Part shown: positions 38,989-60,875 of the stretch, piece by piece
Numbering within the stretch: position 1 is the stretch's first letter
Layout: each line of letters starts with the position of its first letter
Origin: Verrucomicrobiia bacterium
GTDB taxonomy: Bacteria; Verrucomicrobiota; Verrucomicrobiia; Opitutales; Cerasicoccaceae
Assembly (NCBI GenBank): GCA_030432235.1
Contig: JAUIHT010000001.1
Span: 1,054,001-1,118,000, forward strand
Direction: 5' to 3'
Length of the DNA stretch: 64,000 nucleotides
Notes under the pieces: generated by a model
What the model saw: the letters and a program-made list of their open reading frames with translations, nothing else
What the model was told of the DNA's origin: nothing
Databases searched by the model: none
Program-made: the position numbers and the translations under genes

Positions 38989-39010
38989 TTTATTCAAAAG
39001 ATTGAATAAA
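38989..39010. promoter_or_regulatory. Shared palindrome, variant 4 (centre AAGA)
   Basis: ATTCAAAAGATTGAAT at 38992-39007 extends on both sides to 11-base arms (38989-39010, TTTATTCAA and TTGAATAAA outermost). It has the TTCAA-N4-TTGAA form of the exact copies at 43818, 50430 and 60768. It lies 78 bases before the ATG of PEP-CTERM protein 2. Probably a dimeric regulator site. Confidence 0.6.
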
Positions 39011-39088
39011 TATACCTTTTGCTAGCAAGGATGCCGTTGGGGATGATGCCATCGCTCGCAAGTTAATGTAACCCCCTATCTTACTCCC

Positions 39089-39922
39089 ATGAAAAAAATT
39101 ACTTCTTCTGTTATCGCTATTGTACTGTTACAGGCTTCCACTCTGAGTGCGCAGTTCCTCATTTATGACGGTTTTGAAACCCCGGGTGATTACACTGCGG
39201 ATACCAACATCTCCGCGCAGACGGGTGCTGGATCCGGCAACTGGGGCGGCTCAAGCTATACTTATGACAATGAAGGTCAGCCGGTGAATACCGTTACGTC
39301 TTCGCTGACTTACACGGATGGCTCCAATACGCTGGCCACCGCGGACGGGTCCATTCAGAAAACCGCCGGTGTTAACAGTGTGTTTAGCCGCACCTTCGAT
39401 AACACCGCTTTCAATGCCTCCTTTGGAGCCGGAGAGGATATCTGGCTCAGCACCCTTATTGGCATGGAAGCCACCACGGACATCACCTTCCGGGTTAGCC
39501 GGGCCGACCAGTTCAATGGCGCCGGGTTCGACATCATCGGCGGTACGCTGGTGGCCAAGTTCAACAACTCTACTTCCAGCGGCTCGATGAGTATGACGCC
39601 CGGACAGACCTACTTTCTTGTCGGCCGTATCCAGCAGGACGCTGGGGCCGGTGGTGATGATGTCTTCGATTTGTGGGTGAACCCCGATCTGGGCTCCACG
39701 CCTGTCGGCTCGGGCGACCTCACCGTTGAGCAAGGCTACGCCATTTCGCTCATGGGCCGCGTTGTTATGCAGAGCCGCAACAACGATTCCATTCATATGG
39801 ACGAGATTCGCGTAGGCGCCAGCTTTGACGCGGTAGCCCCGACGATACCCGAGCCTTCCGTCTACGCGCTGGCTTTCGGCCTGTGCGCCGGTGTTCTGGT
39901 GTGCTTCCGTCGTCGCCGCTAG
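39089..39922 (+). CDS. PEP-CTERM-anchored surface protein 2
   Basis: A 277-residue exported protein with signal peptide (SSVIAIVLLQASTLSAQ) and C-terminal PEP-CTERM signal (IPEPSVYALAFGLCAGVL then CFRRRR). The body starts with FLIYDGFETPGDYTADTNIS, resembling the jelly-roll lectin-like start of many surface proteins in this phylum, and contains SVFSRTFDNTAF and QTYFLVGRIQ beta-strand segments. It shares its general plan but little sequence with PEP-CTERM protein 1. The leader TAACCCCCTATCTTACTCCC directly precedes the ATG. It is first in a plus-strand series leading to a secreted glycosidase and may help bind the polysaccharide at the surface. Confidence 0.88.
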   Translation: MKKITSSVIAIVLLQASTLSAQFLIYDGFETPGDYTADTNISAQTGAGSGNWGGSSYTYDNEGQPVNTVTSSLTYTDGSNTLATADGSIQKTAGVNSVFSRTFDNTAFNASFGAGEDIWLSTLIGMEATTDITFRVSRADQFNGAGFDIIGGTLVAKFNNSTSSGSMSMTPGQTYFLVGRIQQDAGAGGDDVFDLWVNPDLGSTPVGSGDLTVEQGYAISLMGRVVMQSRNNDSIHMDEIRVGASFDAVAPTIPEPSVYALAFGLCAGVLVCFRRRR

Positions 39923-39968
39923 AGGCTGTTCGGGGCTGAAATGCCCCCGTTATGATTCCCGTTGCATT

Positions 39969-40038
39969 CCGGCACGTTGTGCCGGCCCAGACTTGCGATA
40001 CCTAGAGCCCGGCGTTGCCACCGGATAGTATTATCCGG
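39969..40038. terminator. Two perfect 7-base-stem hairpins before the clan GH-A glycosidase gene
   Basis: CCGGCACGTTGTGCCGG (39969-39985) and CCGGATAGTATTATCCGG (40021-40038) each form a perfect 7-base stem, with loops of three and four. They lie between PEP-CTERM protein 2 and the glycosidase gene. They may attenuate or end the upstream transcript; no T-tract follows, so termination is uncertain and a role in mRNA processing is equally possible. Confidence 0.4.
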
Positions 40039-40140
40039 CTGCACGCCACCTGCGCTGCCTGCACCCACTGTTCCCGCAAGGCCTTCATGGCCTGCGCCGG
40101 GCTGTGCCTACCCCAAAACCTCAACCCCACAACTACCCCG

Positions 40141-43100
40141 ATGAAACACACAATCGCCGCCCTGGCGGCTTGGTCTTCCGTGCTCAGTTTGCACGGTTAC
40201 ACGGATTACTCCGGCACCATGGACGACTTCATGGGCATCAACATCCACACCAACCTGTGGAAGGACTATTATCACCCCTATGCCAGCTACAATCATCTGG
40301 ATTTAAGCCAGGCTTTCAAATGGGTCCGTAACTACCAGCGCTGGGATAAGTTCGAGCCTGCCAACGACGACTATCAGTGGATGGACACCGGCGGTGGCCA
40401 GGAACACTACTTTGATGAATACTACCGACTTCTCAACGAGGACGGCATCAACATCCTGGTCGTGCCGGTGGATGTGCCGGAATGGCTGGCTGGCAGTCCC
40501 GAGCTGCCCGTGGACAACGGCGATGGCACCGAGCCCGACCACTATCGGGAGCGCGCCGAATACCTGGCGCAAATGGCCGCGCGTTACGGGCCGACCGGGG
40601 GACACTCGGGTACACGGCTGGAAACGCCCGACCAGGAGCAAGGGCTCGATTACATTCGTTACTTCGAGGACCACAACGAGCCCAATCAGGACTGGAAGCC
40701 CGACATCTGGTTTGGCGAACTCTTTGGGCAGTACCAGAACGCCGCCCATGACGGACGCGGAGTCGTCCGCAGCGGCACGATGCCTTTGGCCGGTATCAAG
40801 CAGGGCGACCCGAATGCGTTCCATGTCTCCGCAGGTCTCGTGACTAATGGCGTCGATGACAGTTATCTCTTCAAGGCGTTTTATTCCGCCGGGCGTCAGG
40901 CTTACGATATTCTCAATATCCACTCGTACTTCCGCAACGCGCACCTGTTTCCGCCCAACACCTGGCCCTGGCCGAAGGAAGCCGTCGGCGTCTCGCCGGA
41001 GTATTACCTTTTCGAAAGCGGTCTCGACGAAATCCAAAAGACCATCGCCTGGCGCGATGAGAACATGCCGGGCACGCCCGTCTGGCTGACGGAGTTTGGC
41101 TGGGATACCTACGACAACGGCAGCGGCGTGGACGGTAACCACTCGCGCAACTATGCGCCGGAGCTCGCCCAGGCAAACTACCTGATGCGCTCATTCCCGC
41201 TGTTGAAAAAGGTCGGCATCGACAAAGCGTTTATCTTTTTCGACATCGACCCGAACTCCACCTCGACGCAGATGTTCGCCAGCTCCGGGGTATTCTATGA
41301 CAAGGACACGGGGTACGAGGCAAAGACCGCCTATTACTTTCTCAGCGCCATGTCGCAGGCCCTCGGTGAGTATGCCTACGACGGTGCGCACATCTTTGGC
41401 GAAGGCGATCCCGAGGTCTATGCCTTCATCTTCTCCAAGTCCGCGACGGACAAGGTCGTGATGCTCTGGTGCCGCGAGCGCGATGAGCTTTTCGACAACA
41501 GCAGCGGTCTCACCAACTACGTCTTCAACGCGCCCAACATGACCGCCTGCGATATTATTGTGCCGACGGATAACGTCATCGGCGGTGTCGAGAGTGCGCT
41601 TACGATTAGCCAGCCCGGCCAATCCGGCGCCAGCGTGACCGTACCGACCGTCAGTGAGACGCCGGTCTTCCTCCAGATTTCCGGTTCACAGAGCATCGAC
41701 CTCAACCTCGCGCCGGAGGTCCGGGCAGGGGAAGACTTCGAAGTGCAGTTGCCCACCACGACCGCGCAGCTCAGTTGCGAGGCCAGTGATGCGGACGGCT
41801 CCGTTACCGGCTATCAGTGGACGCAGTTGTCCGGCCCCACTGCCACCATCAGCCAGGGGACGACGGCCAGTCCATCGTTGAGCAACCTCACCGCCGGGGA
41901 CTATGCGTTTGCCGTGGAGGCGACCGATAACGACGGTGCGGTCGTGCGTGACGTGGTGCGGTTCAGCGTCACCAACCGCCAACCGTTCCCGAGCGGTCGT
42001 CACGATATCCCGGGCACGATTGAGGCCGAGGATTTCGATGCTGGCGGTGAGGGCATCTCCTACCACGACACCACTACAGGCAACAGCAAGGGATACCACC
42101 GCACTAGCGATGACGTGGACATCAAGTTCATCGGCAGCGACCCGAGCAATTTCTACATCACCGATGCTGCCGCCTCGGAGTGGGTCGAGTATTCCGTCAC
42201 CGTCGACGAAAGCGGCTTGTATACGCTGGATATGAATATGGCGGCTTTCAACACCGGGCGTCGCGTCGAGGTACTCATGGACGGCCTGAATATCTCCGGG
42301 ATCATGCAGGTCATTCAGACCTTCGACGGGGAGGCGTTCACCAGCAACATCGCCGAGCCGATCCTGCTGACCGAGGGCGACCATGTGTTGCGCGTACACT
42401 TCGAAACCAGTGGCACCAGCCTGGACAGCATATCGCTACAGCCCTACGACGACGGCGTGCCTCCGGGGGAATACTTCCATCTGGTCAACACACAGTCGGG
42501 CTGGACCTCGTTGCGCATCTTCTACGAGGTTAAATGGCAGGACGACATTGATGTCCTGGCGGGTGGCAACGACACGCTGTCGTTTTACCTTTCGGACGAG
42601 TCCGCCGGGTTGACCGCGGATTGGGCCAACCTCAAGATCGCCCTTGCCGATACCTCCAGTAACAGCGCCGAGATCGTCATCGGCAACTACGAGACCAACA
42701 TCGGCATCAACTGGACTCAGGTCGAGGTGCCTTTGTCCGTATTCAGCACCGCGGGTGTGGATCTCAATCATGTGGAATTCATGGAGATGCGCTCAGGCAA
42801 CGCAGGCGCGTTCGATATCGGCATCGACGAAATAACCTTCTCCGGAGGGACCACGCCTTTCCTCTGGTACGGCGACGATCATGATGGCAATCCTCTCTCC
42901 AACAGTCCAATCAGCCTGGTCATTGAGAGCACCGGGGGTGTCGGCTACGTCGAGCCTTACAACGAGCCGCCCTTTGTCGATGCCGGACCGGACGCTGTCA
43001 TACGTCCCGCCATCGACACCTTTGTCTTCGACGGCAGCGCTTACGATATCGACGGCGCCGTCACCGCCTACGCCTGGACGCAACTCAGCGGTCCGACGCC

Positions 43101-43752
43101 CGCGTTGCTTTCCGGCCAGGTCACGGAGGACCTCACGTTGGAGGTTTCGCCTGCGGCTTATGGCACCTATGTATTTCGTCTGACGGCTACGGATAACTCC
43201 GGCAATACGTGTACGGATGATGTCGAGCTCGTCTACGAGCCCGTGGGCGGATACATCAACGTCGATCACACCGCGAGCAATTGGAAGGCCTTCACCATTT
43301 TCTACGATGAGGACAAGGAGCCCCAGGATGTGGTCTCCGGCGCGAGCGCCAACACGCAGTTGGAGATTCACTTCAAGCGCTTCGATACAAACTACGCCAT
43401 CGACTGGACCAAGCTCTTCATCGAGGCCAAAGACGACGACAGCCCCGCGACCACCGGCTCCGTTACGGTCGCCGCCTACGCCTCCGTCAGTATTGACGGT
43501 GATTGGGTCAAGGTGGTGTTTCCACTAACAGCCTTCTCCGGCGTGAACTTCGCCAACCTCAACCAGCTCAACGTGCGTTCCGGCAGCGCCGGTCCGTTCT
43601 ATGATCTGGGCATTGACGAAATCCGTTTTGTCGGAGGTTCCGATCCATTTCTGTGGTATGGCGATGACCATGCGGAGGTCGTCTTTAACTCGAATATGCC
43701 AGCCGATCTGGTCGTCAACCTGGAAGCAGCGGATGGCGTACCGATGGAGTAG
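40141..43752 (+). CDS. Secreted clan GH-A glycoside hydrolase with PKD-like and sugar-binding domains
   Basis: A 1203-residue exported enzyme. I chose the ATG at 40141 (signal MKHTIAALAAWSSVLSLHG); longer starts would bury that signal. Residues about 25-450 look like a clan GH-A barrel, with acid/base Glu180 in YFEDHNEPNQDW and nucleophile Glu318 in VWLTEFGWDT. I cannot assign a CAZy family (GH39 or GH5-like are candidates). Then come a PKD/Ig-like domain (YQWTQLSGPT), a CBM6-like domain (IPGTIEAEDFDAGG to VLRVHFETSG), a first sugar-binding-like module ending FLWYGDDHDG, a second PKD-like domain (YAWTQLSGPT) and a second copy of that module ending FLWYGDDHAE. No surface anchor is visible. It may attack a complex algal polysaccharide. 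Confidence 0.88.
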   Translation: MKHTIAALAAWSSVLSLHGYTDYSGTMDDFMGINIHTNLWKDYYHPYASYNHLDLSQAFKWVRNYQRWDKFEPANDDYQWMDTGGGQEHYFDEYYRLLNEDGINILVVPVDVPEWLAGSPELPVDNGDGTEPDHYRERAEYLAQMAARYGPTGGHSGTRLETPDQEQGLDYIRYFEDHNEPNQDWKPDIWFGELFGQYQNAAHDGRGVVRSGTMPLAGIKQGDPNAFHVSAGLVTNGVDDSYLFKAFYSAGRQAYDILNIHSYFRNAHLFPPNTWPWPKEAVGVSPEYYLFESGLDEIQKTIAWRDENMPGTPVWLTEFGWDTYDNGSGVDGNHSRNYAPELAQANYLMRSFPLLKKVGIDKAFIFFDIDPNSTSTQMFASSGVFYDKDTGYEAKTAYYFLSAMSQALGEYAYDGAHIFGEGDPEVYAFIFSKSATDKVVMLWCRERDELFDNSSGLTNYVFNAPNMTACDIIVPTDNVIGGVESALTISQPGQSGASVTVPTVSETPVFLQISGSQSIDLNLAPEVRAGEDFEVQLPTTTAQLSCEASDADGSVTGYQWTQLSGPTATISQGTTASPSLSNLTAGDYAFAVEATDNDGAVVRDVVRFSVTNRQPFPSGRHDIPGTIEAEDFDAGGEGISYHDTTTGNSKGYHRTSDDVDIKFIGSDPSNFYITDAAASEWVEYSVTVDESGLYTLDMNMAAFNTGRRVEVLMDGLNISGIMQVIQTFDGEAFTSNIAEPILLTEGDHVLRVHFETSGTSLDSISLQPYDDGVPPGEYFHLVNTQSGWTSLRIFYEVKWQDDIDVLAGGNDTLSFYLSDESAGLTADWANLKIALADTSSNSAEIVIGNYETNIGINWTQVEVPLSVFSTAGVDLNHVEFMEMRSGNAGAFDIGIDEITFSGGTTPFLWYGDDHDGNPLSNSPISLVIESTGGVGYVEPYNEPPFVDAGPDAVIRPAIDTFVFDGSAYDIDGAVTAYAWTQLSGPTPALLSGQVTEDLTLEVSPAAYGTYVFRLTATDNSGNTCTDDVELVYEPVGGYINVDHTASNWKAFTIFYDEDKEPQDVVSGASANTQLEIHFKRFDTNYAIDWTKLFIEAKDDDSPATTGSVTVAAYASVSIDGDWVKVVFPLTAFSGVNFANLNQLNVRSGSAGPFYDLGIDEIRFVGGSDPFLWYGDDHAEVVFNSNMPADLVVNLEAADGVPME

Positions 43753-43817
43753 TTTCCGGGCCTGAAAAGTACCGGAATTGAGCATCAAAAAGCCGACATG
43801 CGATGCCCTTGGCCTTG

Positions 43818-43831
43818 TTCAATTGATTGAA
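43818..43831. promoter_or_regulatory. Shared palindrome, exact copy 1
   Basis: TTCAATTGATTGAA, arms TTCAA/TTGAA with centre TTGA, 128 bases before the pseudopilin-like gene of locus B. Identical 14-mers lie at 50430 and 60768. Confidence 0.7.
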
Positions 43832-43959
43832 TAGGGCCGGGGGTCGCGCACCGGTCGATTTGCGAACAGTCTCTTACTTAAGAAACGGAGCCGATTCCGG
43901 TGCGACGGCGGCCTGCGGGCTGTGGCGCATCTTGAATCAGTGCTCAATTCCGTGACCCC

Positions 43960-46900
43960 ATGCAACGTACCCCCCAGTTCATTGTCACACGTCCAATCCG
44001 GCGGGCGCAGGATGGATTCGCGCTGGTGATCGCCCTGGCGCTGATGACCTTTATCATGCTGTTGCTGGTAATGACTTCCACCATCGTCCAACTGGACATG
44101 GCGACGCTACGCTCAAACCAGGCCCTGGCAGTTGCGCGTGACAACGCCCGGTTGGGCCTGCTGGTGGCTTTGGGGGAGCTGCAGAGCCAGACGGGGCCGG
44201 ACCAGCGCATCACAGCCAACGCCTCGCTGCTCAACGACGTTTCCACTCATCCGAACTGGGTGGGCGTTTGGGACTCCGAGGCCTGGAACCCGGACGCCCC
44301 ATCCGCGCAGCCCGATACCACGGCGCTGTTTCGTCGATGGTTGGTTTCCCTGCCGGACGCGGAGGAGTTCGGCCAGTCCCTCGACATCGAGAGTATGACC
44401 TTGCCCGAGGATGCCGGTAGCGGCTCGGGCTGGGAGCCGCTTGTGGGGGAGGGCACTCTGGGAGTTGGCGCCGCCGCGACCGACATCGTGCAGGCCGGCA
44501 AGCAGACCGTGCCGGGCAAGGGTCACTACGCCTATTGGGTCGGCGATGAGAATGTCAAAGCACGTTTCAACCTGACAGAAACCACCAGCCCATACGCCAC
44601 GGCTCCGGCTCAGGCCTTTGCTCTGGCGGCTCCTCAGCGCTGGCACATGGAACAGGTCGGCAAGGATGGGGCTTCTGCGACGGACGGTGATTTCGACGGT
44701 CTCTTTGATCCGCTGTCAGGCTCGCTTGAGAGCGTCTCTTCCGGTTCGGATGTCGGCCTGGCTGCGACTACGGAGGATAAGGCAGGTGATTTGCAGGCGG
44801 TTTACGGTAGCCGTTACCACGACTTGTCCCTCCACTCAATGGGACTGATGGCCAACGCCCGCGATGGCGGGCTCAAGCAGGACCTCAGCCTTGCCTTCGA
44901 GATGGACGAAACGGACTTCAACGATAGCGAGGATTTCGCCGTGGGCAGCGCGGGTTGGAACTCCCTCTACACCGACACCAATCCTGACGGGCAGTCGGTC
45001 AAGTCCATCTGGTGGCTCGAAAGCGACGATACGGACGAGCCGAACATGCACTATAAGGGTCCCACCTGGCACCTGTTGCGTGACTACTACAATCTCTACC
45101 GCGAAGTCAGTGACCCCACCGGCACGCCGACCTTGTCCGCCCGGCAGGCATTGCCGGTCCCGAAGAAGAACACCAACAATCGCAGTATATCCAGGGATTA
45201 TGACAACGGCCAAACCGTTTATAACTCCAATCTGCCCTTAATTCGACCGCGCAGCGTCAAGCTGGCCCCCGTGGTAGCGCGTGTGCAAATCGTGCTTAGT
45301 CTGACAGCGGTTCCGGTGGATAGCAGTACGGTTGTTTCTCCGGCCAGCTACACCAATTCCTCGGAGCCGGTTTATAAGCTTCGACTGATCGCGGACCCGA
45401 TTATCACGCTCTACAATCCTTATGGCGTCAACCTCCACTTCCAGGCCGTTACCATCGAGATCAACAATATCGTCAACTCCCTGCGCTGGGAGCTTAATGA
45501 CGTTGAGTCAAACCTTATGGCGCTGACGGAGATTTTTGCCCTCTCGCATCAGGGCTATCTGGACACCACCGATCCCGATAATTTCGTTTTCGGCATCGTT
45601 TCGATCGGCAATGATGATGAAGGCATCACGATGGCGCCCGGTGAGGTGAAGGTGTACTCGGCGGGAAATACATCGCCGGTCAATTATACCGAAGCCGTCG
45701 ATGCGATGGAGGGCTGGCCTACGGACGGTGGTTTTTTTGTCGAAACCCTGGACCCAGTTCCGGGCTTGAATGGAGGCGAGGGGAAGGAATACGGACATGA
45801 GCTCAACGTCGGCGGCAACGCCGTGAAAGGGGTTATACTGGGCAAGGCATCCGATACCCTCGCGGTCGATTTCGAGGAAATCTTTAGTGGCGGTACCGTT
45901 AAATGGATCAGCCGAAACAGTAATTTCAAGAGCTCCGAAAAGCAGATGTATATCAATGCTTATCTGGTGAGTCCCGATGCCTATGATGAGCGCCATGATG
46001 TCCACTCGAACCGGTTCATGGCTGATCGGGTGCCGCTTTACACGATGCTTCGGGCTAACGTTGAGTTTGGTGATTCCGCGATGATGGGGAATATCGGTCG
46101 TGTCCCCGAGAGCGGAAGCTACCCCTTCAGCCAGTTCATCAACAACAAGCAGACGCTCGGGCAGATCGACATCCGCCTGAAGACGGAAGACAACGATAGC
46201 CGCCCTTATCCGATGTTCGCCCTTTCATCGATGAATGCTTACGCGACTAACGTGCAGTCCGCCTTCGATGACAAATACGGAAAAATCAATCCTCCCTTCG
46301 AAGTTTCGCGTGAGCGCGTGGACGACATTTTTTCCGCCGTGCAATTCGACCCGGACACCAACCGCGGCTATTGGGGGCCGACCCGTGAGCTGCAGCCCGG
46401 CGCCAAGAGCTTCGTCGCGGGGTTTGATGTCCCCAAGGCACCGCTGGTTTCGCTGGGGCAGTTGCAGCATGTGGACACGGCAATTTACGGATACGAATCT
46501 TCCCATGCCATCGGCAACTCTTTCGCCTCACCGTGGATTCCCATCGACGAGATTGAGTTTACGGACAAGGCCAACATCGACACGGCGTTCCTGGCCAACA
46601 ATGCGCTTTGGGATGGGTACTTCTTCTCCTCACTGACACCGCAGGATACGGACATCTTCGGAACGAGTAGCGATATCGAAGAGGTGCTGACGGAGTTTAC
46701 TACAGGCGGGAAGCTCCTGCCTAACGCGCGCATGGCCTTTCTTGGTGATAAGGACGTGACCTTCGCCGATGCCGTCTTGGATGATGGCAAGATTCAACCC
46801 GATGCGCATCGCAAGAGCGCGGGATACTTGGGGGTCGAAGGTGCTTTCAATGTAAACTCCACTTCCGTTGAGGCCTGGAAGACGCTCTACGCCAGCATGG

Positions 46901-48275: not shown

Positions 48276-48282
48276 CGGAGGG

Positions 48283-48296
48283 TTTAACTGTTTGAA
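48283..48296. promoter_or_regulatory. Shared palindrome, degenerate copy
   Basis: TTTAACTGTTTGAA matches TTCAATTGATTGAA at 10 or more of 14 positions and is flanked by GGT and TAACC, so the extended site is itself nearly palindromic. It lies 63 bases before the GH42 gene. Weaker evidence than the exact copies. Confidence 0.45.
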
Positions 48297-48359
48297 TAAC
48301 CAGGTGCGTCGCGTCCCGGCGCATTCCATCGCATTGATTGCTAATAGTATACGAAGAGC

Positions 48360-50378: not shown

Positions 50379-50429
50379 GCGCGCATGCTCCATAAGGCGG
50401 CTTTAGCGAGTGTCTGGTTCCGCCGGAGA

Positions 50430-50443
50430 TTCAATTGATTGAA
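50430..50443. promoter_or_regulatory. Shared palindrome, exact copy 2
   Basis: TTCAATTGATTGAA, 206 bases before the first giant esterase gene (50650). The distance leaves room for a long leader, which contains the C-rich stretch ACCTACCCCTAACCC near 50555. Confidence 0.7.
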
Positions 50444-50649
50444 CATGCGCGCGCATTGTTTGCGGGGATTTATGTGCGTTTAATAAAGGCCTTATGAAAG
50501 GCGCTTGTTTTTCGAAGAACGGGATCCGGGCGTCATCTCGCAACGTTTAATTGCACCTACCCCTAACCCTCGAAAATACCCCTGGCTGAGTTTGGCCCTT
50601 CTTGTGTCGTGCCATGCTTCGGGGTGCTATCAAAGTATAAACTAATAAA

Positions 50650-53600
50650 ATGAAATACTATAAGTTGACCCTAACATTCCTGTTCGCGTGCTTGCTACAC
50701 GCACTGATTCTGCCCCTGCAGGCAGTCACCATGGAAGACTTCGAGGCCCGCATATACGATCCGGATGACGATCCGAATACCGACAATTTGCACAACCGCC
50801 TCTTTATCCCGAAGGATTACGATACGAATAAAAGCTATCCCCTCGTCATTCACTTGCACGGCCTGGGCTCGGGTAACGGCAACAACATCACGCAGATGGC
50901 CGACCATGGTCACGGCGGCATGTACTTTGCCGAAGACGACCAGCAGGCCTACGAGCCGTCCTTCGTGCTTATTCCACAGGAGCCGGTGGGATCGACTCAC
51001 TGGCACCAGCAGCCCGTGAAGGGGCTCCTTATCGGTCTGATCGATTCGGTGTTGTCAGAATACTCGAACATCGATCCGGATCGTGTCTATTTGGGAGGAA
51101 TATCCATGGGAGGAAACGGTACCTGGAGTCATCTGGTCCAACAGCCCAATAAATTCGCCGCCGCTTACATCCTCGCCGGTGCCGGAGGTACGGGCAGTGC
51201 TTCCAGCATCGATCATGTTCCGATGTGGTTCCTGCACGGTAATGCGGACACGACCGTCTCTTACAGTACATCGGTGAATCGCGTGAACACACTGCGTGGC
51301 CTGGGCGCACCGGTCATCTTTACCACCTTCGATAATGTTGGGCACGCTATCGGCCCGCGTAGCGGAAGCATCTACGACCTCTACGTCTGGCTGATGAGTC
51401 AGCGACGCGGACAGGTTGCCCAGGGTGCGCCTCTGTTGCGCATCACCGAGTATTCCGTGGACAGCAACCTGGACATCTCCGGCGTCGCCCTCGACGACCT
51501 CGCGCAGGTTGACGATGTAGACTGGTCTAACAGCGCGGGCGGCAGCGGTACGGCCACCGGCACGTCGAGTTGGTCTGCCAGCAACATCACACTGTCCGGC
51601 GGCACAAATCTCGTCACGGTTACGGCCACTGGCTGGTCCTACGATGAAAGCAACACCAGCGGCTTCACCACCTTCAGTCAGGCGCTGCAAATCCTGGGCT
51701 TTTCAGCGCCGAGTGGTGATGTTACCGCGCCGGTCATGGTCACCACCAGCCCATCGCACACCGGCTTCTCCGTGACCACGGCGACTACGCCGCTTAGCTT
51801 TACCGGTACCGCTTCCGACGACACCGGGGTCAGCAGCGTGACCTGGGCGACGGACCGCGGGTACAGCGGCACGGCTTCCGGCACGACGTCATGGTCCGCT
51901 TCCATCGCGCTCGAATTGGACGTGAACACCGTCGAAATTACCGCCATGGACGCCAACGGCAACTTGCACGCGCAGGTCTTCGAAGTGAACTACACCGGCA
52001 CGGTGGTCAATGAAGCGCCGGAAGTCCGCACCGGTCCGGACCTTCTCCTGGCTATGCCGTACAACACCGCCGACCTCGATGCCGCGGTTGGCGATGACGG
52101 CCTGCCGTTGGCGTTCAGTGTGGAATGGACCAAGGAGTCCGGCCCCGGTACCGTCACCTTTGGCGATGCCTATGAGATCGACACCACCGCCACCTTCTCC
52201 ACGCCGGGAACCTACGTGCTGCGCCTGACTGCGGACGACTCCTCGCTGACCGGTTACGACGAGGTCACGGTCATTGTGCGTGGAACCCCTGTGGCGATTT
52301 CCGGTCCCGGCGTGTTGGGCATCAATTGCCGCGGCACATCGTCCTACACGGCATCGGACGGCACGGTGTATTATCCCGATGATACCTATGCGGAGCTCCT
52401 GGGTGGCGGTTCGCATACCAGCAGCGCGGCTATCGCGGACACGACCGACGATACGATTTACCAGACGGGCTATTTCCCGCGCGGTGATGTGCTCTGGCGC
52501 AACATCCCGCTGTCCAACGGCGAGTACGTCGTCACCCTGAAGATGGTCAACCCGAACAATGCGGTGGGTAAACGACTCGGTGATTACTACATCGAGGGCA
52601 TGCGCGTCCTCAACGACTTCGATGTGCGCGCATACGTGGCCAAGGATACCGCACTGGATCGCTCCTTCGCGGTAACCATCACGGACGGCGATCTCGATGT
52701 GATTTTGTTCGAAGCCAACGACAAGCCGTTGCTTTGCGGTATCCTCGTGCAGCAGGCCGACACCGGTTCGCCGACGAACACCGCGCCCACCGTCGATGCG
52801 GGCGCCGACCAGTCCGTGTTGTTGGCCAATGGGGCCTCTCTCGATGGCACGGTGACCGACGATGGTCTTGCTCCCGGTAATCCAACGCCGACCACCACGT
52901 GGAGCAAGGACAGTGGCCCCGGCACCGTCACCTTCGGCAGCGCCAGCGCGGTGGATACCACGGCCGACTTCTCCGTGGACGGTACCTACGTCCTGCGCCT
53001 GACTGCGGACGACGGCGACCTGAGCAGCTACGACACGGTAACTATTACCGTAACCGATCAGAGCGCACCCACGGCCAGCCGCACGGTGGTCTACGATTTC
53101 GGCGGCCAGTCCGTTCCTTCGGGCAACTGGAACCTCGTGCGATACTATGGCGTCAACGACAACGTCTACGATGCGGTCGATACCGACGGTAACTCAACGC
53201 CTTTCGATCTGGTCATCAACGATGACTTCAAAGGCCGCGATTACAACGGCTTCACCGGTTTGTCCAACTATCCCGACGAGGCGACCTTCGACGCCTTCTA
53301 CACGAATCTGACCAACCCCGCGGAGATTGCCTTCCAGGGACTGATTCCGGCGGCGAACTATAGCGTCACCATCTTCGCATCGATAGAGAACACGGGTTCA
53401 CCTGGCGACTATGTCGGCAAGTATACCATCGATAGCGTGGACGAGACCCTCGACGCGGAAAACAACACCGCGCAGGTCGTCACCTTTGGTTCGGTGACTC
53501 CGGACTCCGGCGGCGAAATCGTACTCAGCATGGTTTCCAACACTGGTTCGGGCATCGCCCTGGTCAACGTCATCGAGCTGACCGAGCTCGCGGCCAATGA

Positions 53601-54408
53601 GGCCCCGGTAGTCGACGCCGGCTCCGATGCCTCCGTCAATCTCTCCACCGGCGCATCTCTCGACGGCACGGTGACGGATGACGGTAACGCGCCGGGTAGT
53701 GCCACACCCACGACGACATGGAGCAAGGTCAGCGGCCCGGGCACGGTTACCTTCGGGGATGCCAATGCAGTGGACACCACGGCGACTTTTTCCGCCGCCG
53801 GGGAATACGTTCTGCAGCTCTACGCCACCGACGGGGACATGAGCGACTCCGACACGGTGACGATTACCGTCATCGACGACAGTACACCGGTGCTTCAAAA
53901 GCGGCTCTACTTCGATTTCGGCGGCCAGGTTACGCCTTCGGCCAACTGGAATCTTGTGCGCTACTATGGCGTCAATGACGGGGTGACGGATGCGGTCGAT
54001 ACCAACGGAAATGCGACATCCATCGACTTGCGCATCACCGACGACTTCAAGGGGCGCAACCTCACCGGCGTCACAGGTGAAGCGCCTTATGATGACGATG
54101 CCGCCTACGACTCCTTCTACACAAACCTGGGCAACCTGGCCGAGTTTGACCTGGAGGACCTCGACACCAATGCGACCTACACCGTCACCATCGTCGCGTC
54201 GGCGGACGAGGCCTGGAGCGGTGAGTTCACCATCGGCGGTACGCTGGTGACCGACGGTGCGGCGGCGGATGAAATTGCCACCATCACCGTTTCGGATGTC
54301 GTGCCGACGCAATCCGGCACCATCACGATCGAGTTTCATGCGGAAAACGATACCGGCTCGATCTTCATCAACATCCTCGATCTGGCGGAGTATACCACGG
54401 GCAGTTAA
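50650..54408 (+). CDS. Giant secreted esterase with malectin-like and repeated PKD domains
   Basis: A 1252-residue exported protein. After the signal peptide (FLFACLLHALILPLQA) is a PHB-depolymerase/feruloyl-esterase-like alpha/beta hydrolase with Ser152 in GGISMGGNG, Asp200 in HGNADTT and His232 in NVGHAIG. Then follow an Ig-like stretch (VDWSNSAGGSG), a second Ig-like stretch (SFTGTASDDTGVSSVTW), a PKD domain, a malectin-like sugar-binding domain (LGINCRGTSS to LCGILVQQ), and a tandem pair, each a PKD domain plus an unrecognised module of about 150 residues beginning YDFGGQ or FDFGGQ. No anchor is seen. It would remove acyl groups from a polysaccharide. A strong terminator follows. Confidence 0.88.
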   Translation: MKYYKLTLTFLFACLLHALILPLQAVTMEDFEARIYDPDDDPNTDNLHNRLFIPKDYDTNKSYPLVIHLHGLGSGNGNNITQMADHGHGGMYFAEDDQQAYEPSFVLIPQEPVGSTHWHQQPVKGLLIGLIDSVLSEYSNIDPDRVYLGGISMGGNGTWSHLVQQPNKFAAAYILAGAGGTGSASSIDHVPMWFLHGNADTTVSYSTSVNRVNTLRGLGAPVIFTTFDNVGHAIGPRSGSIYDLYVWLMSQRRGQVAQGAPLLRITEYSVDSNLDISGVALDDLAQVDDVDWSNSAGGSGTATGTSSWSASNITLSGGTNLVTVTATGWSYDESNTSGFTTFSQALQILGFSAPSGDVTAPVMVTTSPSHTGFSVTTATTPLSFTGTASDDTGVSSVTWATDRGYSGTASGTTSWSASIALELDVNTVEITAMDANGNLHAQVFEVNYTGTVVNEAPEVRTGPDLLLAMPYNTADLDAAVGDDGLPLAFSVEWTKESGPGTVTFGDAYEIDTTATFSTPGTYVLRLTADDSSLTGYDEVTVIVRGTPVAISGPGVLGINCRGTSSYTASDGTVYYPDDTYAELLGGGSHTSSAAIADTTDDTIYQTGYFPRGDVLWRNIPLSNGEYVVTLKMVNPNNAVGKRLGDYYIEGMRVLNDFDVRAYVAKDTALDRSFAVTITDGDLDVILFEANDKPLLCGILVQQADTGSPTNTAPTVDAGADQSVLLANGASLDGTVTDDGLAPGNPTPTTTWSKDSGPGTVTFGSASAVDTTADFSVDGTYVLRLTADDGDLSSYDTVTITVTDQSAPTASRTVVYDFGGQSVPSGNWNLVRYYGVNDNVYDAVDTDGNSTPFDLVINDDFKGRDYNGFTGLSNYPDEATFDAFYTNLTNPAEIAFQGLIPAANYSVTIFASIENTGSPGDYVGKYTIDSVDETLDAENNTAQVVTFGSVTPDSGGEIVLSMVSNTGSGIALVNVIELTELAANEAPVVDAGSDASVNLSTGASLDGTVTDDGNAPGSATPTTTWSKVSGPGTVTFGDANAVDTTATFSAAGEYVLQLYATDGDMSDSDTVTITVIDDSTPVLQKRLYFDFGGQVTPSANWNLVRYYGVNDGVTDAVDTNGNATSIDLRITDDFKGRNLTGVTGEAPYDDDAAYDSFYTNLGNLAEFDLEDLDTNATYTVTIVASADEAWSGEFTIGGTLVTDGAAADEIATITVSDVVPTQSGTITIEFHAENDTGSIFINILDLAEYTTGS

Positions 54409-54520: not shown

Positions 54521-56044
54521 CTACTTTTTTGAATACTCGCGCAGGTACTGCTCCGGGGATTTGGGAAAGCCGTTGACGCCTCGCGAACCATCGAACTGGT
54601 ATAGGCGGCGGCGCTCGCGCATCTCAAAGGGCAGGGAGAGTAGCTTGCCGTCGCAGAGGGCTTCGGCGGGCCCTCGCTCTTTCAAGAGACGCGTGAGCTC
54701 GTCGCGCATCCGTTGTGTCGGTTCGTTATCGCCGGCGAGATTGTGGAGCTCGTCGGGATCGGCTTCCAGGTCGAAGAGCTGTTCGCGACCTCCGTTGGCC
54801 ATGAAGATGTACTTCCACTGACCCGAGCGCAGCATGAACTTCGAGCGTCTGGTGCCGGGCGCGCCATGGTAGCCGACAAGCGACTCCCTCGGTGGCGTCG
54901 TGCCGTTGAGCATCCCGAGCACATCGACGCCGTCGCGGAACTCGCCCGCGCCCGCTGCCTTGGTGGTGATGCCGAAGAGGTCCGTCAGGCAGACCAGTGC
55001 ATCACTACGCGAGCCCTCGGCGATATGGCCGGGCCAGCTCAGGAGGAAGGGGATGCGGCAGGAGGATTCAAAGAAGCTCTCCTTTTGCCAGGCATGGTGA
55101 TCGCCCATATGGTCGCCGTGATCGGAGACAAAGCAGACCAACGTGTTGTCAGCCTGACCACTGGCCTCCAGTGCATCGAGCACGCGCCCGATGCATTGAT
55201 CGATGTAAGTGATTTCACCATAGTAGCGCGAGTAGAGGATGCGTGTATGGTTGTCGGTTACGTCTTCGGCGAAGACCGCGTGGTTCATCCAGGGGATCTG
55301 GTCGTCCATGTGGTCTTCCGCACGATCACCCTTAACCGGCGTGGGCATGCGGTCGGGGTCGTAGATACGATTGAAGGGAATGGGCGGGGCGAGCGGCGGG
55401 TGCGGACCGATGTAGGAAACGACACCGAAGAACGGCCTGTCGTCCTCGATGTTGATTTGCTCGACGGCGCGATCACTGGCCCAGGCCTCGACGCATAACT
55501 CCGCGGGCAGGGGGCTCATCTGCGGCATGTAGTACATCTCCGAACGCTCTCCCATCAGCATTTCGAGGAAGGAAAAACTATCGTGATGTTCTTCAATCCA
55601 GCGGGCATAGGCATCGCCTGCACGCTTCTCGGGCGTTTGGTAGGTTTCCTCACTGTGCAGGTGTCTTTCGTAGCCGAGGTCTTCGTCCCAGGGTGACGAG
55701 TGGAACTTGCCGATACCGAAGGTGCGATAGCCGAGCCCCTTCATCGTTTCAGCCAGGTAGGGCCCGCAGCGTCCACGCATGGTTGCGGCCTGGCCGGGCG
55801 CGGGTTCCACAAAGATGTTTGAAAAGCTGCGCGTCGTGGGCGGTTCGCAACCGGTACGCACCGTGTAGCGAGCCGGCATGCACACCGGGCAGGTCGAGTA
55901 AGCGTTGGTGAAGGCCACGCCGCGCCGCACCAGCCGGTCCAGGTTGGGCGTATAGATTAACTCATTACCCAGCGCCGCGATGGTATCGTGGCGCTGCTGG
56001 TCGGTGAGGATGAACAGGATATTCGGTTTGCGATCGGCAGCCAT
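54521..56044 (-). CDS. Sulfatase without signal peptide (formylglycine type)
   Basis: A 507-residue S1-family sulfatase. The N-terminus MAADRKPNILFILTDQQRHD enters the catalytic domain at once, with metal ligand Asp15. The formylglycine precursor is Cys55 in CMPAR, the standard C-x-P-x-R form, and DHGDHMGDH carries later metal ligands. The LFDLEADPDELHNLA end is typical. Without a signal peptide it is presumably cytoplasmic, desulfating imported sulfated oligosaccharides or small sulfate esters; its neighbour upstream is exported. It starts 3 bases after the 1507-residue esterase gene and is clearly in the same operon. It differs in type from the exported sulfatase of locus A. Confidence 0.93.
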   Translation of the reverse strand: MAADRKPNILFILTDQQRHDTIAALGNELIYTPNLDRLVRRGVAFTNAYSTCPVCMPARYTVRTGCEPPTTRSFSNIFVEPAPGQAATMRGRCGPYLAETMKGLGYRTFGIGKFHSSPWDEDLGYERHLHSEETYQTPEKRAGDAYARWIEEHHDSFSFLEMLMGERSEMYYMPQMSPLPAELCVEAWASDRAVEQINIEDDRPFFGVVSYIGPHPPLAPPIPFNRIYDPDRMPTPVKGDRAEDHMDDQIPWMNHAVFAEDVTDNHTRILYSRYYGEITYIDQCIGRVLDALEASGQADNTLVCFVSDHGDHMGDHHAWQKESFFESSCRIPFLLSWPGHIAEGSRSDALVCLTDLFGITTKAAGAGEFRDGVDVLGMLNGTTPPRESLVGYHGAPGTRRSKFMLRSGQWKYIFMANGGREQLFDLEADPDELHNLAGDNEPTQRMRDELTRLLKERGPAEALCDGKLLSLPFEMRERRRLYQFDGSRGVNGFPKSPEQYLREYSKK

Positions 56045-56047
56045 GGT

Positions 56048-59000
56048 TTATTCTTCTTCCTGCACGCGGAGCCGAATGAAGCGCGGCTGCTCGGGTTCGA
56101 AGGTCAAATCCATCGTGTCCATGACCTTCACGCTGACGGTTTCGGTGCCGGTCTCGGTGACATCGGCGGAGCCGGTCCAGTCACCACCGGGCAGGAGCGT
56201 GGCGATGGTGAGCCAATCGCCGGGGGCCATGGTGGACGAGGCCTCGACGATGTAGGTCAGGCTACTTTCAGGAGGACGGTTAAAACTCAGTTCGAGCCGG
56301 CCGTTCCTCATACGGTGCTGTGGCAGGCCGGAGTTGGGCAGATCGGGGTTGGTGCCCAGGGCGTACTCCAGCATGTTGTTCATGCCGTCGCGGTCCGGGT
56401 CGGCACTTTCTCCTACAAAGTTTGGGTTGCCGGGCTCACCCGGGAAGAAATCGCCGATCCAGTTGACGAAGATGGGCGCCTGCACGGTCTTTTCCGCTAG
56501 CTCGATGGCATTGACGTAGACCTTGAAGGTGGTCTCCTGCGGCAGGCAGTGTAGCGTGATGACGCCCTGGGCCGTTGGTGCGATATTCTCGAAGACCACG
56601 AACCCGCTGGTGTTGCCGGCGGCGTCGAAGGTCTGCGCCAGGCCGTTGACGGTGTACACGCCGACGGAGGGCGTGGCGGGATCGACAGCGCTGGAGGCGA
56701 AGATGACGATGTCGTAAGCCTTGGCCGAGTCGAGGTCCTGGAAGGCCATTTCACCCACGTTGGCGTTATTGCAATAGAAGGAGTCGTAGGCGGCCTCGTC
56801 GGGGAAACCGCCGCCGGGAACGATGCCCGTGAGGTCGCGCCCGCGGAAGTCGTCCGTGAGGTAGAGGTCGATCGGGGTGACGTTGTCATCGGTGTCCTTG
56901 GCGTCAGTCACGCCGTCGCCCACGCCGTAGTAACGCATAAGGTTCCAGCCGGTGGCGGGTGTGACCTGCCCGCCGAAGTCGAAGCGGACGGTGCGTCCGC
57001 GTGGTGGCGGTCCGCGTGTGCCCACCGTGACGGTTATGGTGTCGGAGGCGCTCAGCTCGCCGTCATCGGCGGTCAGTTTGAGCACGTAGATTCCGGCGGC
57101 AGAAAAGCGTGCGGAGGAGTCCTCGGCATCTGGAGTGGCGAAGTGAACGCGCCCGGGCCCGCTCTGCTTGCTCCAGTGGAAGGTGGGGGTTGCATTGCCT
57201 GGCTCCAGACCGTCATCGACCACGCTGGCATCGAGCATGACACCCTGGGCGAGGCCCACGGTCTGGTTTTCGCCTGCATCGACAACAGGAGCCTGGTTGA
57301 CGAGTGGTCCGGTGATGGCTTCCCGGATAACGATGCCGCACAGCAACGCCTTCTCGCTTTCGTAGTACTGCTGGATGTTCAGCTCGCCGTCGGTGACGGT
57401 GATGGGAAAGTCGAGGTCGTAAGCGACATCCTTTTCGGCGAACTCGCGCACGTCGAAGTCGTTCAGGACGCGGTAGCCTTCGATAAGGTAGTCCGCGATG
57501 TTCTTGCCAAGCGAATTGACGTGCGTGACCTGCTGCAAGGTAACGACGTAGTCGCCGTTAGGCAGGGGGATGTCCCAGAGCGTGGAGCCGTGGGGAAAGA
57601 TGCCTGTTTGATAAATGACCGGATCGCTCGTGCCGGTGACAACCGACGAGTCCGCGTGGTCCGAGCCACCGCCAAAGCGAAACGCGTCATCGGCCTCGTA
57701 CACGGTGCCGTCGCTTGCGGTAAGCGCGGGCCCGAGGCAGTTGATGCCCATGATGCCAGCTCCGGCCGGGGAGCGCGGTGCCTCGGCCACGATGACAGTG
57801 ATCTCGTCCTCCGCGCTTTTCTCGGAGTCGTCCGCGCTGATGTGCAACACGTAGGTGCCGGGCTCGGAGAAAGTCGCCGTGGTGTCGACTGCGTTGGCAT
57901 CGCCGAAGGTGACGGTTCCCGGGCCGCTGGTTTTTGTCCAGGTGACCGTGGAGGGCACGGGCACGCCGTCGTCGCCGAGGGAGGCGTCGAGCTCCACCGT
58001 CATTTGCGGTATGACAACGATAAGGTTGGGGCCGGCACGTACACGTGGGGCAAGGTTGATGCCGGGCTCCTTGCGCACGACGTAGAATATCTGCGTATGG
58101 CGGTTGCCTGCGGCGTCGAATGCGCTGATGGAGACACGATTCAAACCCGCTACGAGCGGGATGAAGGCGAACCAGTCGTCAGTGCCGGTAGCGCCGCCGC
58201 TTTCGTCGCGATCGGTTTCCCACGTGACGGAGCTGACGGCGGTGTCGTCGCTAGCGGTACCGGTGAAGTCGATGGTGGTTTGATCGGTCTCGATAAAATG
58301 GTCGATGTGCTCGGGGCTGACGATCACCAGGCGCGGCGCATAGACATCTCCCGAGGGTGAGGCGTAGTCGATACTGACGGCCTGGTTGAAGGTGGTGTTA
58401 CCGCTGTCACCGTCGTGGTAGGCCCAGCCGGTGGCGGTGACGTTGATCAGGTTCTGCCCTTCCGAAAGCGCGATATCGTGCGCGGACCAGTAGGTGGCGC
58501 CGTTGACATCGTCGTCACTGCTGACGTTGTTGCGGTGCTCGTGGAAGAACTGCCAGATGCTCTTGAAGGGATCGGAAGGCACGTCGTCGATGGTGACGAG
58601 GGTGGTGGTGGAATTGCCGTCGTACCAGATGCGGTCCCAGACCGAGCCGCTATGGCCGAGGCCCTGGAAGCAGTTAAAGACGACCGACGGTCCGATGATT
58701 TTGCGCAGGCCCGCGACATTGCCGGGCTTGCGCGTGGTATCGGTTTCCCCGTGATGAATGAGAATGGGTTTGGAGGCCGCGATGCTTTGGTCGTACCCTC
58801 CGCCGATGCTGCCGGAGAGTGCGTAAACCGCGGCCAGCTTTTGCACGTGCTGGGTGATGTCCGTGACGCCGTCGTTGGCGTAGGGGGACTCCAGCATGCC
58901 GAGTGTGCTCATGGCGCCGCCGGAGAGCCCACCGAGGTAAATGCGGTTTGGATCGATGTTGGGATGATTGTAAGCGTACTCGATCATGTTGCAGACCTCC

Positions 59001-60571
59001 TCGGTGCTCAGCCAGGTGCCGCCGGCCAGGCAGAGCCCGATGAACTTCTCGCCGTTGACGCGGCTTTCGAGTTCGTTGCCGTTGTTGATGAACTTCGCCA
59101 GGCCAACGTTGAGTGTGGTGGGGTCACGCTCCGTGAAGCCGATGCCGTGGATGTCGATAATGCACGGGTAGCGCCGATTGGTGTCGAAGCCGGCAGGATG
59201 GTATTCCTTGAAACCGACGACCCAGTAGGACGTCTCGGTGAAGGGCCAGTCGGTGAAGCCGTAGTAGCCGGTGCCTTCCTCGAAGTAGTCGGTGAAGGTT
59301 GAAGGCGTATCGGCATCGATCCGATTGATCACGGGTACGCTGGAGAAGCCGTCGAGCTCCTCGCCCGTGGCGCTTTGGATGGGAGCGGTGACGGGTACTG
59401 CGTAGCCCAGGGTGGGCGCGTCGCCCATTTCGAAATCGGAGTCGAACGTGATGGAACAGAAGTAGTCGCCGTTGTTGATGGTGACGTTCGTGGCGGTTTT
59501 TGGCGTGGCCACACTGCCGCCGAGAATGAATCGGGAGAGGTCGGGGACGCTGTCGTGATCCAGGAGCTTGTCGGTCGAGATGACGATGGTGTCGCGATTG
59601 GAGTCGGCGATGAAGATGGCGTTCCGCTTCATCGGAGGACCGAGTACGGTTGCGCCGCTGCCCCCGGCGCTGTTGCTCCAGTCGACCTGGCTGGTGCGTA
59701 CGGTTTCGTCCACCGCGACGCCGCGGATGTCGAGCTGACTGTCGACGGAGTATTCGGTGATGCGGAGAAGTGGAGCCGCCTGCGGGGCCTCGCCGTTGGT
59801 TTGCCCGATCATCCAGGCGTAGAGATCCAGCATGCGGCAGGCGCGCGGGCCGATGACGTGTCCGCCGTTGTCGAAGCGCGTATAGATGGGAGAGCCCCCA
59901 AGCGACCGTAGGGCGTTGGTGCGGTCGTCGGAGCGAGCTACGTTGACGGTGGAGTCTGGGGCGGAGTGCAGGAGCCACACGGGCAGGTCCGTGATTTTAT
60001 TCGCGCCGCCCGTGCCTCCCGCGCCAGCCATGACGATGCCGGCGGCGTACTTGTCCGGGTAGCTGGTAATTTGGTCCCAGGTGCCCTGGCCGCCCATGGA
60101 GACGCCGCCGATGTAAATGCGATCCGGATCGATGTCCGGGAACTCAACCAGCAGGGAATCGACCAAACCGTTCAGCAGGGGCTTTACGTCCGACTGGTGC
60201 CAGCGGTCGTTGGTTTCGCCGGGCTCCTGTGGCAGGACGACATACGCGGGCTGCATGGCCTGGCGATCGTCCTCGGCGAAGAACATGCCGCCGTTGCCGT
60301 GGTTCATCATCTGTGTGATGTTGTCGCCGTTACCGCCCCCGACGCCGTGCAGGATGATGACCAGCGGATAGGTTTCATCGGGCCGGGTGTCTTCCGGGTA
60401 GAAGATGCGGTGCGGCATGTTGAGCGTTTCGGAGTTGTCGTCCGGGTCATAGACGCGTGCCTCGAAGTCGTCGACGGTGACGCCGAAGGCCGGAATCAGG
60501 GCCGCGAGCGAAAGCAGCGCGGTAGCCACCGTGGATTTTAATCGCGAGGGGAAGGCGGGTAGGGGATTCAT
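56048..60571 (-). CDS. Giant secreted protein with two esterase domains, one inserted into an Ig-like domain
   Basis: A 1507-residue exported paralogue of the esterase at 50650. Domain one has Ser158 (GGVSMGGQG), Asp206 and His238. The next Ig-like domain (VDWSNSAGGSG, about 297-306) is interrupted by some 385 residues and resumes near 690 (TYWSAHDIALSEGQNLINVTATGW). The insert holds a strand-rich segment (about 310-420) and a second alpha/beta hydrolase with Ser550 (GGLSGGAMS), probable Asp611 and His640. Later come another Ig-like stretch, a PKD domain, a malectin-like domain (MGINCLGPAL), a PKD domain, the FDFGGQ module and a C-terminal domain starting ADPDRDGMNNMLEYALGTNPD. It heads an operon with the sulfatase. 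It would deacylate polysaccharide. Confidence 0.88.
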   Translation of the reverse strand: MNPLPAFPSRLKSTVATALLSLAALIPAFGVTVDDFEARVYDPDDNSETLNMPHRIFYPEDTRPDETYPLVIILHGVGGGNGDNITQMMNHGNGGMFFAEDDRQAMQPAYVVLPQEPGETNDRWHQSDVKPLLNGLVDSLLVEFPDIDPDRIYIGGVSMGGQGTWDQITSYPDKYAAGIVMAGAGGTGGANKITDLPVWLLHSAPDSTVNVARSDDRTNALRSLGGSPIYTRFDNGGHVIGPRACRMLDLYAWMIGQTNGEAPQAAPLLRITEYSVDSQLDIRGVAVDETVRTSQVDWSNSAGGSGATVLGPPMKRNAIFIADSNRDTIVISTDKLLDHDSVPDLSRFILGGSVATPKTATNVTINNGDYFCSITFDSDFEMGDAPTLGYAVPVTAPIQSATGEELDGFSSVPVINRIDADTPSTFTDYFEEGTGYYGFTDWPFTETSYWVVGFKEYHPAGFDTNRRYPCIIDIHGIGFTERDPTTLNVGLAKFINNGNELESRVNGEKFIGLCLAGGTWLSTEEVCNMIEYAYNHPNIDPNRIYLGGLSGGAMSTLGMLESPYANDGVTDITQHVQKLAAVYALSGSIGGGYDQSIAASKPILIHHGETDTTRKPGNVAGLRKIIGPSVVFNCFQGLGHSGSVWDRIWYDGNSTTTLVTIDDVPSDPFKSIWQFFHEHRNNVSSDDDVNGATYWSAHDIALSEGQNLINVTATGWAYHDGDSGNTTFNQAVSIDYASPSGDVYAPRLVIVSPEHIDHFIETDQTTIDFTGTASDDTAVSSVTWETDRDESGGATGTDDWFAFIPLVAGLNRVSISAFDAAGNRHTQIFYVVRKEPGINLAPRVRAGPNLIVVIPQMTVELDASLGDDGVPVPSTVTWTKTSGPGTVTFGDANAVDTTATFSEPGTYVLHISADDSEKSAEDEITVIVAEAPRSPAGAGIMGINCLGPALTASDGTVYEADDAFRFGGGSDHADSSVVTGTSDPVIYQTGIFPHGSTLWDIPLPNGDYVVTLQQVTHVNSLGKNIADYLIEGYRVLNDFDVREFAEKDVAYDLDFPITVTDGELNIQQYYESEKALLCGIVIREAITGPLVNQAPVVDAGENQTVGLAQGVMLDASVVDDGLEPGNATPTFHWSKQSGPGRVHFATPDAEDSSARFSAAGIYVLKLTADDGELSASDTITVTVGTRGPPPRGRTVRFDFGGQVTPATGWNLMRYYGVGDGVTDAKDTDDNVTPIDLYLTDDFRGRDLTGIVPGGGFPDEAAYDSFYCNNANVGEMAFQDLDSAKAYDIVIFASSAVDPATPSVGVYTVNGLAQTFDAAGNTSGFVVFENIAPTAQGVITLHCLPQETTFKVYVNAIELAEKTVQAPIFVNWIGDFFPGEPGNPNFVGESADPDRDGMNNMLEYALGTNPDLPNSGLPQHRMRNGRLELSFNRPPESSLTYIVEASSTMAPGDWLTIATLLPGGDWTGSADVTETGTETVSVKVMDTMDLTFEPEQPRFIRLRVQEEE

Positions 60572-60875
60572 AAGCGTAAGGGTCGGGGAACAAGAGTTGC
60601 GGGGTGACGGCCAGGTCTAGCAAGGGGCGTCTGTGGGTCTGCCGTCCCAAGATTAAATATGGTCTTTTTACTGGCCTGCCGCACTGACTTCAAATCGGGC
60701 GCACAGTAGACCATTTGAATAGCCACCGCTGAGCATTGAGAGTCGAGAGGGCAGTCCTATGGCATCGTTCAATTGATTGAATTCGACTGCCCGTTGAGTG
60801 CGTGGCGTGGCTGCTTCAGCATGGGGGCGTAAGCAAAGCTAGTTGCTGACCAACCCATAACCCACCGAAACCCAC
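60572..60875. other. Divergent promoter region of the double esterase and the small secreted protein genes
   Basis: 304 bases with no reading frame of interest. It holds the exact palindrome at 60768 and the dodecamer ATATGGTCTTTT (60657-60668) shared with the region before the GH1-AraC gene. The transcript leaders on both sides are rich in CCC runs, and no Shine-Dalgarno sequence is seen before either start. Confidence 0.55.
60768..60781. promoter_or_regulatory. Shared palindrome, exact copy 3
   Basis: TTCAATTGATTGAA in the divergent region, 94 bases before the plus-strand gene at 60876 and 196 bases before the start of the minus-strand double esterase. One site could control both transcripts. 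Confidence 0.7.

Follow-up and report, generated by a model that had tools for sequence, protein, structure and literature searches.

Local regulons governed by a LacI-family protein are well known, and the regulator class is ordinary. In the largest survey, that of the RegPrecise collection by Ravcheev et al. (2014), 1173 of the 1251 LacI regulators with even palindromes had operators with a central CG, and the seven phyla, as listed there, do not include Verrucomicrobiota (PMC4052901). For a cluster such as the one analysed here, no operator in Verrucomicrobiota was found described in those open papers that were searched. The window, the whole 64,000-base stretch of DNA that was analysed (G000:C37:1054001-1118000, where G000 is the source genome of 5,724,694 bases, a Verrucomicrobiia bacterium), carries repeated copies of the palindrome TTCAA-N4-TTGAA before genes of a marine-type glycan-degradation cluster. 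We regard it as nearly certain that this palindrome is the operator of a regulon, and as highly probable that it is bound by a LacI-family protein encoded at the end of the same cluster. The explanation favoured as a whole, in which this LacI acts on five operators and mainly as an activator, is given a probability of about 65%.

The locus resembles the local LacI sugar regulons, as far as the part of the survey considered here describes them, in its cluster-encoded LacI, even palindrome, probable autoregulation and carbohydrate genes, and in having sites mostly 30-140 bases 5' of start codons. Unlike them, it has no central CG, and that part of the survey makes no mention of a fixed distance to the -35 element (PMC4052901). 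CcpA sites of Bacillus subtilis that lie upstream of the -35 as a rule activate, in a manner dependent on the face of the helix (PMC3463425), and the present layout is like CcpA activation at ackA, pta and ilvB in placing a LacI-family protein upstream of the -35. As at ackA, the operators stand upstream of the predicted -35, here at a fixed spacing, if the box in question is indeed a -35. CcpA, however, is global, has HPr-Ser-P as its partner and represses most of its targets (PMC3463425), whereas the present protein is local, is encoded in the cluster, and seems to hold an activator position at nearly all promoters. Cra/FruR of enterobacteria is likewise a LacI-family protein that, in the survey's account, activates some genes (PMC4052901), but it is global and has different targets.

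Results

Occurrence of the palindrome

The exact 14-mer TTCAATTGATTGAA was found at 43818, 50430 and 60768 (window coordinates, as throughout unless a contig is named), and a scan of the entire genome returned these three copies and none elsewhere. A variant with the centre AAGA, TTCAAAAGATTGAA, lies at 38993 and has nine-base arms (TTTATTCAA/TTGAATAAA), and a degenerate copy, TTTAACTGTTTGAA, lies at 48283. TTCAAN4TTGAA occurred four times in the window versus 0.06 times per dinucleotide-shuffled window, and no shuffle gave four. It occurs eight times genome-wide, four of them within these 22 kb; the remaining copies are within predicted genes (three) or intergenic with another centre (one). 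By an arithmetic estimate, the chance that four of the eight copies share one 26-kb stretch is ~3e-8. Every window site is intergenic, and so is every exact site in the surrounding 224 kb, of which the intergenic share is 8.5%. The centre is TG/CA at most sites and AG at a few, including 38993; the central CG that is typical of LacI/GalR operators, though neither universal nor defining, was not seen. Outside the 14-mer the flanks of the sites have no similarity to each other. Genome-wide, the motif is not equally common in coding or housekeeping DNA, and it is specific to the cluster.

The cluster-encoded LacI-family regulator

A LacI-family gene lies at 64242-65384 on the forward strand, with a probable ATG at 64281. 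The preliminary description of this DNA had guessed at a LacI-type regulator, rightly, and had seen no such gene in the window, which is literally true because the window ends 242 bases before the gene begins. The N-terminal helix-turn-helix (HTH) of the protein matched PF00356 above the cut-off (E 2.3e-13, residues 21-66) and aligned to those of CytR, LacI and PurR. The profile of the regulator also gave a partial match to CcpA (2o20) over residues 7-278, covering the HTH and much of the core (E 1e-6). The gene is on the same strand as, and 3' of, the genes at 60876 and 61534, and the site at 60768 therefore heads the lacI operon. A second, distant LacI gene was observed at 72080, divergent from GH66-like and glucosidase-like genes (67366-73141), and probably belongs to a separate glycan regulon.

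Comparison with related genomes

Of the 273 genomes of the order, only four hold close relatives of this LacI, and the four belong to a single family. A scan of the genome collection for LacI added as its sole close ortholog that of Cerasicoccus frondis, one of the four. In the three relatives (G001, G005 and G007) the orthologs are 60-64% identical, and the recognition segment VSISTVSLALR is common to all. The genes at 39089, 40015, 43960 and 48360 and the sulfatases accompany the ortholog in all three, and those at 60876 and 61534 in two. Beyond 39089 on the left and lacI on the right, the genes are not conserved with the cluster and have no supported sites, and these two borders delimit the regulon.

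Exact TTCAAN4TTGAA sites numbered five in G001, no more than 17 kb from the LacI gene, and three in G005, no more than 13 kb from it. The sites in G007 are degenerate, with the core TCAANYRNTTGA, and in the relatives TCAA-N-YR-N-TTGA is the common core of the intergenic sites. With a weight matrix for which the eight exact sites from G001 and G005 were the sole training set, the four exact window sites ranked at the top of 224 kb of the window's chromosome (26.2-27.0 bits). Below them came 65408 (20.8), C37:1009968 (20.0) and 48283 (18.7), and the next match scored 12.5. An unsupervised palindrome search with five-base arms and four gap lengths placed TTCAA-N4-TTGAA first in G000 and G001 and second in G005, where the top entry was a shorter version covering the same sites. 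Operators lay at similar distances from the start codons of orthologs (108 bases for 60876 and 103 and 100 for its counterparts in two relatives; 142, 99, 117 and 115 for 43960 and its counterparts), and outside the sites the orthologous upstream regions align poorly between genera. The palindromes near lacI and the neighbouring genes are of the even type, 14-16 bp long, and would be the sequences that the regulator binds.

Most of the preliminary description stood up to these data. Its three exact copies are present at the positions given above, the site at 48283 that it called degenerate is a real, weaker site that scores well over the best non-site, its view that chance is very unlikely agrees with the shuffles, and all supported window sites are intergenic, as it said. 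The equal frequency in coding or housekeeping DNA that it had proposed as a refutation did not appear in the genome-wide scan. Its long-armed variant has the AAGA centre that was reported and starts one base later than the 38992 that was given. The regulon that it saw across the degradation loci is indeed an operator regulon, restricted to a single local cluster from 39089 to about 65384. A six-base-centre form at 37578 has to be dropped: the comparative matrix lends it no support, and the gene that follows it is outside the conserved cluster.

Three other matches were considered. C37:1009968, 83 kb away in a low-GC stretch, lies in an open reading frame and was discounted as a chance match, and 67276 overlaps a gene start and is without a promoter box. 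The match at 65408 also has no promoter box and was left uncertain. In G001, the same motif copy was seen near C1 positions 4495845, 4531565 and 4567285 at an exact spacing of 35,720 bases, a recurrence that suggests either that some 36 kb are duplicated in tandem or that the assembly contains an artefact.

Spacing between operators and predicted promoters

When sites were aligned on the operator and oriented by the following gene, T, T/C, G and mostly C stood 12-15 bases past the 14-mer, with A at +36 and T at +40. Of the 20 oriented sites, 18 had T[TC]G at +12; other offsets averaged 0.76 such sites, and the opposite reading direction gave no more than three. With sites defined blind to the box and both directions counted, T[TC]G fell exactly at +12 in 21 of 26 intergenic sites and in 4 of 54 control sites; the background expectation is about 4% per offset per orientation. 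All five window sites carry the box in the rightward reading.

The box is likely a -35 of the sigma-70 type, TTGCnn, followed by a 17-base spacer and a poor -10, which would put the operator centre near -55 relative to the likely start. The -10 signal is weak; in three genomes, 14 of 16 sites have its last T. Owing to the poor boxes, a scan with the sigma-70 consensus gave no promoter at either 60768 or 38993, and the signal became visible only after operator alignment. The unvarying distance from operator to -35 indicates contact with RNA polymerase. This fixed spacing was absent from the preliminary description, and it shifts the likely mechanism from repression to activation.

Organization of the cluster

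All features below are on the forward strand except where stated. Operator 1, TTCAAAAGATTGAA at 38993-39006, lies 96 bases 5' of the first gene and scores 26.6 with the matrix from relatives only. Its predicted promoter has a -35 TTGCTA (39019-39024), a spacer of 17 and a -10 GATGAT (39042-39047), and the same spacer applies to the four predicted promoters that follow. The first gene (39089-39922) encodes a secreted protein of 277 residues with a PEP-CTERM-like tail and has counterparts in the three relatives. It is likely in one operon with the gene at 40015-43752, whose product of 1245 residues (61-66% identity in relatives) has an N-terminal (beta/alpha)8-type glycosidase-like region with NEP and TEFG motifs, PKD repeats and CBM6/35-like modules.

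Operator 2 (43818-43831, an exact 14-mer) is 142 bases 5' of the gene at 43960 and is followed by a predicted promoter at 43844-43872 with a -35 TCGCGC and a weak -10, CAGTCT. The gene at 43960-47598 encodes a pseudopilin-like protein of 1212 residues whose start is hydrophobic and of the GFALVIALLLMAF type. The protein is related to Verru_Chthon cassette protein A, to which three of the four members of its family give a weak match. A protein of 226 residues is encoded in the same operon at 47595-48275, overlapping the end of 43960. Very large pseudopilin-like proteins (1200+ residues) were seen both at 43960-47598 and at 27605-31342, one per orthologous glycan cluster.

The degenerate operator 3, TTTAACTGTTTGAA at 48283-48296, has TCG at +12 and lies 77 bases 5' of the gene for a GH42 beta-galactosidase-like enzyme (48360-50378; 62-66% identity in relatives); the predicted promoter at 48309-48337 has a -35 TCGCGT and a weak -10, CATTGA. 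Operator 4 (50430-50443, exact) is 220 bases 5' of 50650, with a predicted promoter at 50456-50484 (-35 TTGTTT, -10 TTTAAT). The gene at 50650-54408 encodes a secreted esterase-like/PKD/malectin protein of 1252 residues. Longer inverted repeats, GCGCGCATG...CATGCGCGC (50379-50460), flank this operator.

A leftward operon on the reverse strand consists of an esterase-like/PKD/malectin gene (56048-60571, 1507 residues), which starts 197 bases left of operator 5, and, as second gene, a sulfatase (54521-56044). The products of 50650 and 56048 are paralogs, 43% identical. Operator 5 (60768-60781, exact) stands between the divergent genes, 108 bases 5' of 60876, and is flanked by longer inverted repeats, GGGCAGTC...GACTGCCC (60740-60800). 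Its predicted promoter (60794-60822; -35 TTGAGT, -10 CAGCAT) precedes the first gene of the LacI operon, for a secreted protein of 204 residues (60876-61490), and a gene for a glycosidase-like protein of 892 residues (61534-64000 in the window, continuing to 64212). The natural guess for the substrate of the cluster, and the most likely one, is a sulfated, galactose-containing glycan. The scanned cluster proteins gave no Pfam match to SusC or SusD, the pair expected in a polysaccharide utilisation locus of the Bacteroidota type, in a scan that was not a search aimed at these two.

A paralogous cluster in the same genome

A second cluster at G000:C37:728000-769000 (cluster B; the window cluster is cluster A) holds paralogs of the cluster A genes and a LacI that is 58% identical to that of cluster A and has the recognition segment VSTTTVSL. 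TTCAAN4TTGAA is not found in cluster B. Its intergenic palindromes are GTTTTACTGTTTAAAC-like, roughly GTTTTAC-NN-GTAAAAC, and several of them precede the paralogous genes at 741098, 741910, 747408, 729478 and 765369; the sites are few, and the evidence for this motif is weaker than for that of cluster A. TTGA is at +12 in three of these sites and at +11 in two, despite the differing operators. Since both the recognition helix and the palindromes before paralogs differ, regulator and operator appear to have diverged together between the two clusters. The sites at 48283 and 65408 were observed to match both matrices (19.3 and 20.9 with that of cluster A, 19.0 and 18.6 with that of cluster B), which may reflect cross-talk between the two LacI proteins. 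LacI regions elsewhere in the family (e.g. G007:C13) have another motif and lack a clear +12 box, and when pooled they gave only a slight excess at offsets +11 to +13.

Neighboring regulators

A gene at 35688-37529 on the forward strand encodes a fusion in which a GH1 glycosidase is followed at the C terminus by an AraC-type DNA-binding domain; both catalytic motifs, NEP and ITENG, are apparently intact. It adjoins a divergent GH1 enzyme at 33976-35379 that is 60% identical, and full-length fusions occur in several relatives (56-64% identity). An enzyme turned sensor and a bifunctional enzyme-regulator are candidate readings of its sequence. A short PAS-AraC regulator is encoded at 24636-25367 (forward strand) beside sulfatase and sugar kinase/isomerase genes.

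Discussion

In the favoured explanation, a LacI dimer would bind TTCAA-N-TG-N-TTGAA and control five rightward promoters, those of 39089-40015, 43960-47595, 48360, 50650 and 60876-61534-lacI. The products of the regulon would be secreted glycosidases, the GH42 beta-galactosidase, esterase-like/PKD proteins and the pseudopilin-like protein. A breakdown oligosaccharide would be the signal on which LacI contacts RNA polymerase and the cluster, lacI included, is turned on. What the computation shows is the sites, their confinement to this cluster, their occurrence together with LacI orthologs and the fixed spacing; the effector, the direct binding and the sign of regulation we infer. Activation is somewhat preferred over repression, because exactly 12 bases separate the operator edge from the poor -35 (TTGC/TCGC) that follows and the operator centre is near -55, a layout usual for activators but not for the LacI family. 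Several points weigh on the other side. Geometry is the sole guide to the sign, and GalR-type LacI proteins, in contact with polymerase from about -60, can act as repressors too. No site with a +12 box was seen for the leftward operon 56048-54521, the fourth genome, G007, lacks a -10 signal at the expected spacing, and two relatives have no site directly 5' of the LacI gene itself. Firm homology of the regulator is limited to the HTH; its C-terminal effector domain, of the periplasmic-binding-protein-like type, matched in part, the Pfam scan gave no Peripla_BP match, and the structure model was poor (predicted local distance difference test, pLDDT, 49) and was not used.

The same LacI and operators could also form a classical repressor system, the protein blocking or contacting polymerase upstream of the -35 until an oligosaccharide releases it. 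This account is distinctly less probable. The LacI-family regulators studied so far are mostly repressors. Most local LacI regulators autoregulate, according to the part of the survey considered here (PMC4052901), and at the lev operon CcpA, bound upstream of the promoter, acts as a repressor (PMC3463425). Steric repression would not, however, need an invariant 12-base distance (21 of 26 sites). Repressor sites usually overlap the promoter, and the -35 and -10 elements match the consensus poorly, as at activator-dependent promoters. A further doubt concerns the TTGC box itself, which might be part of the operator or the site of a second factor, the spacing then marking contact between two regulators. 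Conservation is far stronger in the box than in the -10, which one genome does not have at the expected spacing. It varies as a -35 does (TTGC, TTGA, TTGT, TCGC), however, and a -10-like column follows 17 bases on; cluster B keeps TTGA at +12 or +11 next to different operators. This reading is held to be improbable.

Another binder of the palindrome, either the AraC-type fusion encoded nearby at 35688-37529 or a factor from elsewhere in the genome, is very unlikely. AraC-type sites are usually direct repeats. The fusion lies outside the conserved cluster and is present in G003, G009 and G030, genomes without this LacI ortholog, and from cluster A to cluster B the LacI helix changes along with the site. 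Some cluster genes, such as 50650 and 56048, are paralogous, as a recent duplication with the repeats as its by-product would have it. That origin, like chance, is already refuted by the comparative data, in which orthologs from other genera are preceded by the same sites in upstream regions that show little alignment apart from them. In addition, the flanks are dissimilar beyond the 14-mer, and the chance expectation is far below the count observed.

With the cluster LacI as probable activator, the new features are an operator centre without CG, an arrangement that looks activator-type at almost all promoters, and the presence of two paralogous regulons. We suggest tentatively, at somewhat less than even odds, that this LacI subfamily in these Verrucomicrobiota-type bacteria consists of dedicated local activators that use a CG-less palindrome, invariantly placed near -55, before a degenerate -35, and that the duplicated clusters diverged in helix and operator and kept the geometry. 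Under that proposal, the divergence means that the glycan clusters would be wired independently. The analysis joins a glycan cluster of a little-studied bacterial group to a regulator, an operator and probable promoters, so that its substrate becomes traceable through the inducer. If activation is true, the cluster would be a clean case of LacI-family proteins as dedicated activators, and the two paralogous clusters are a natural experiment on the joint change of a LacI recognition helix and its operator.

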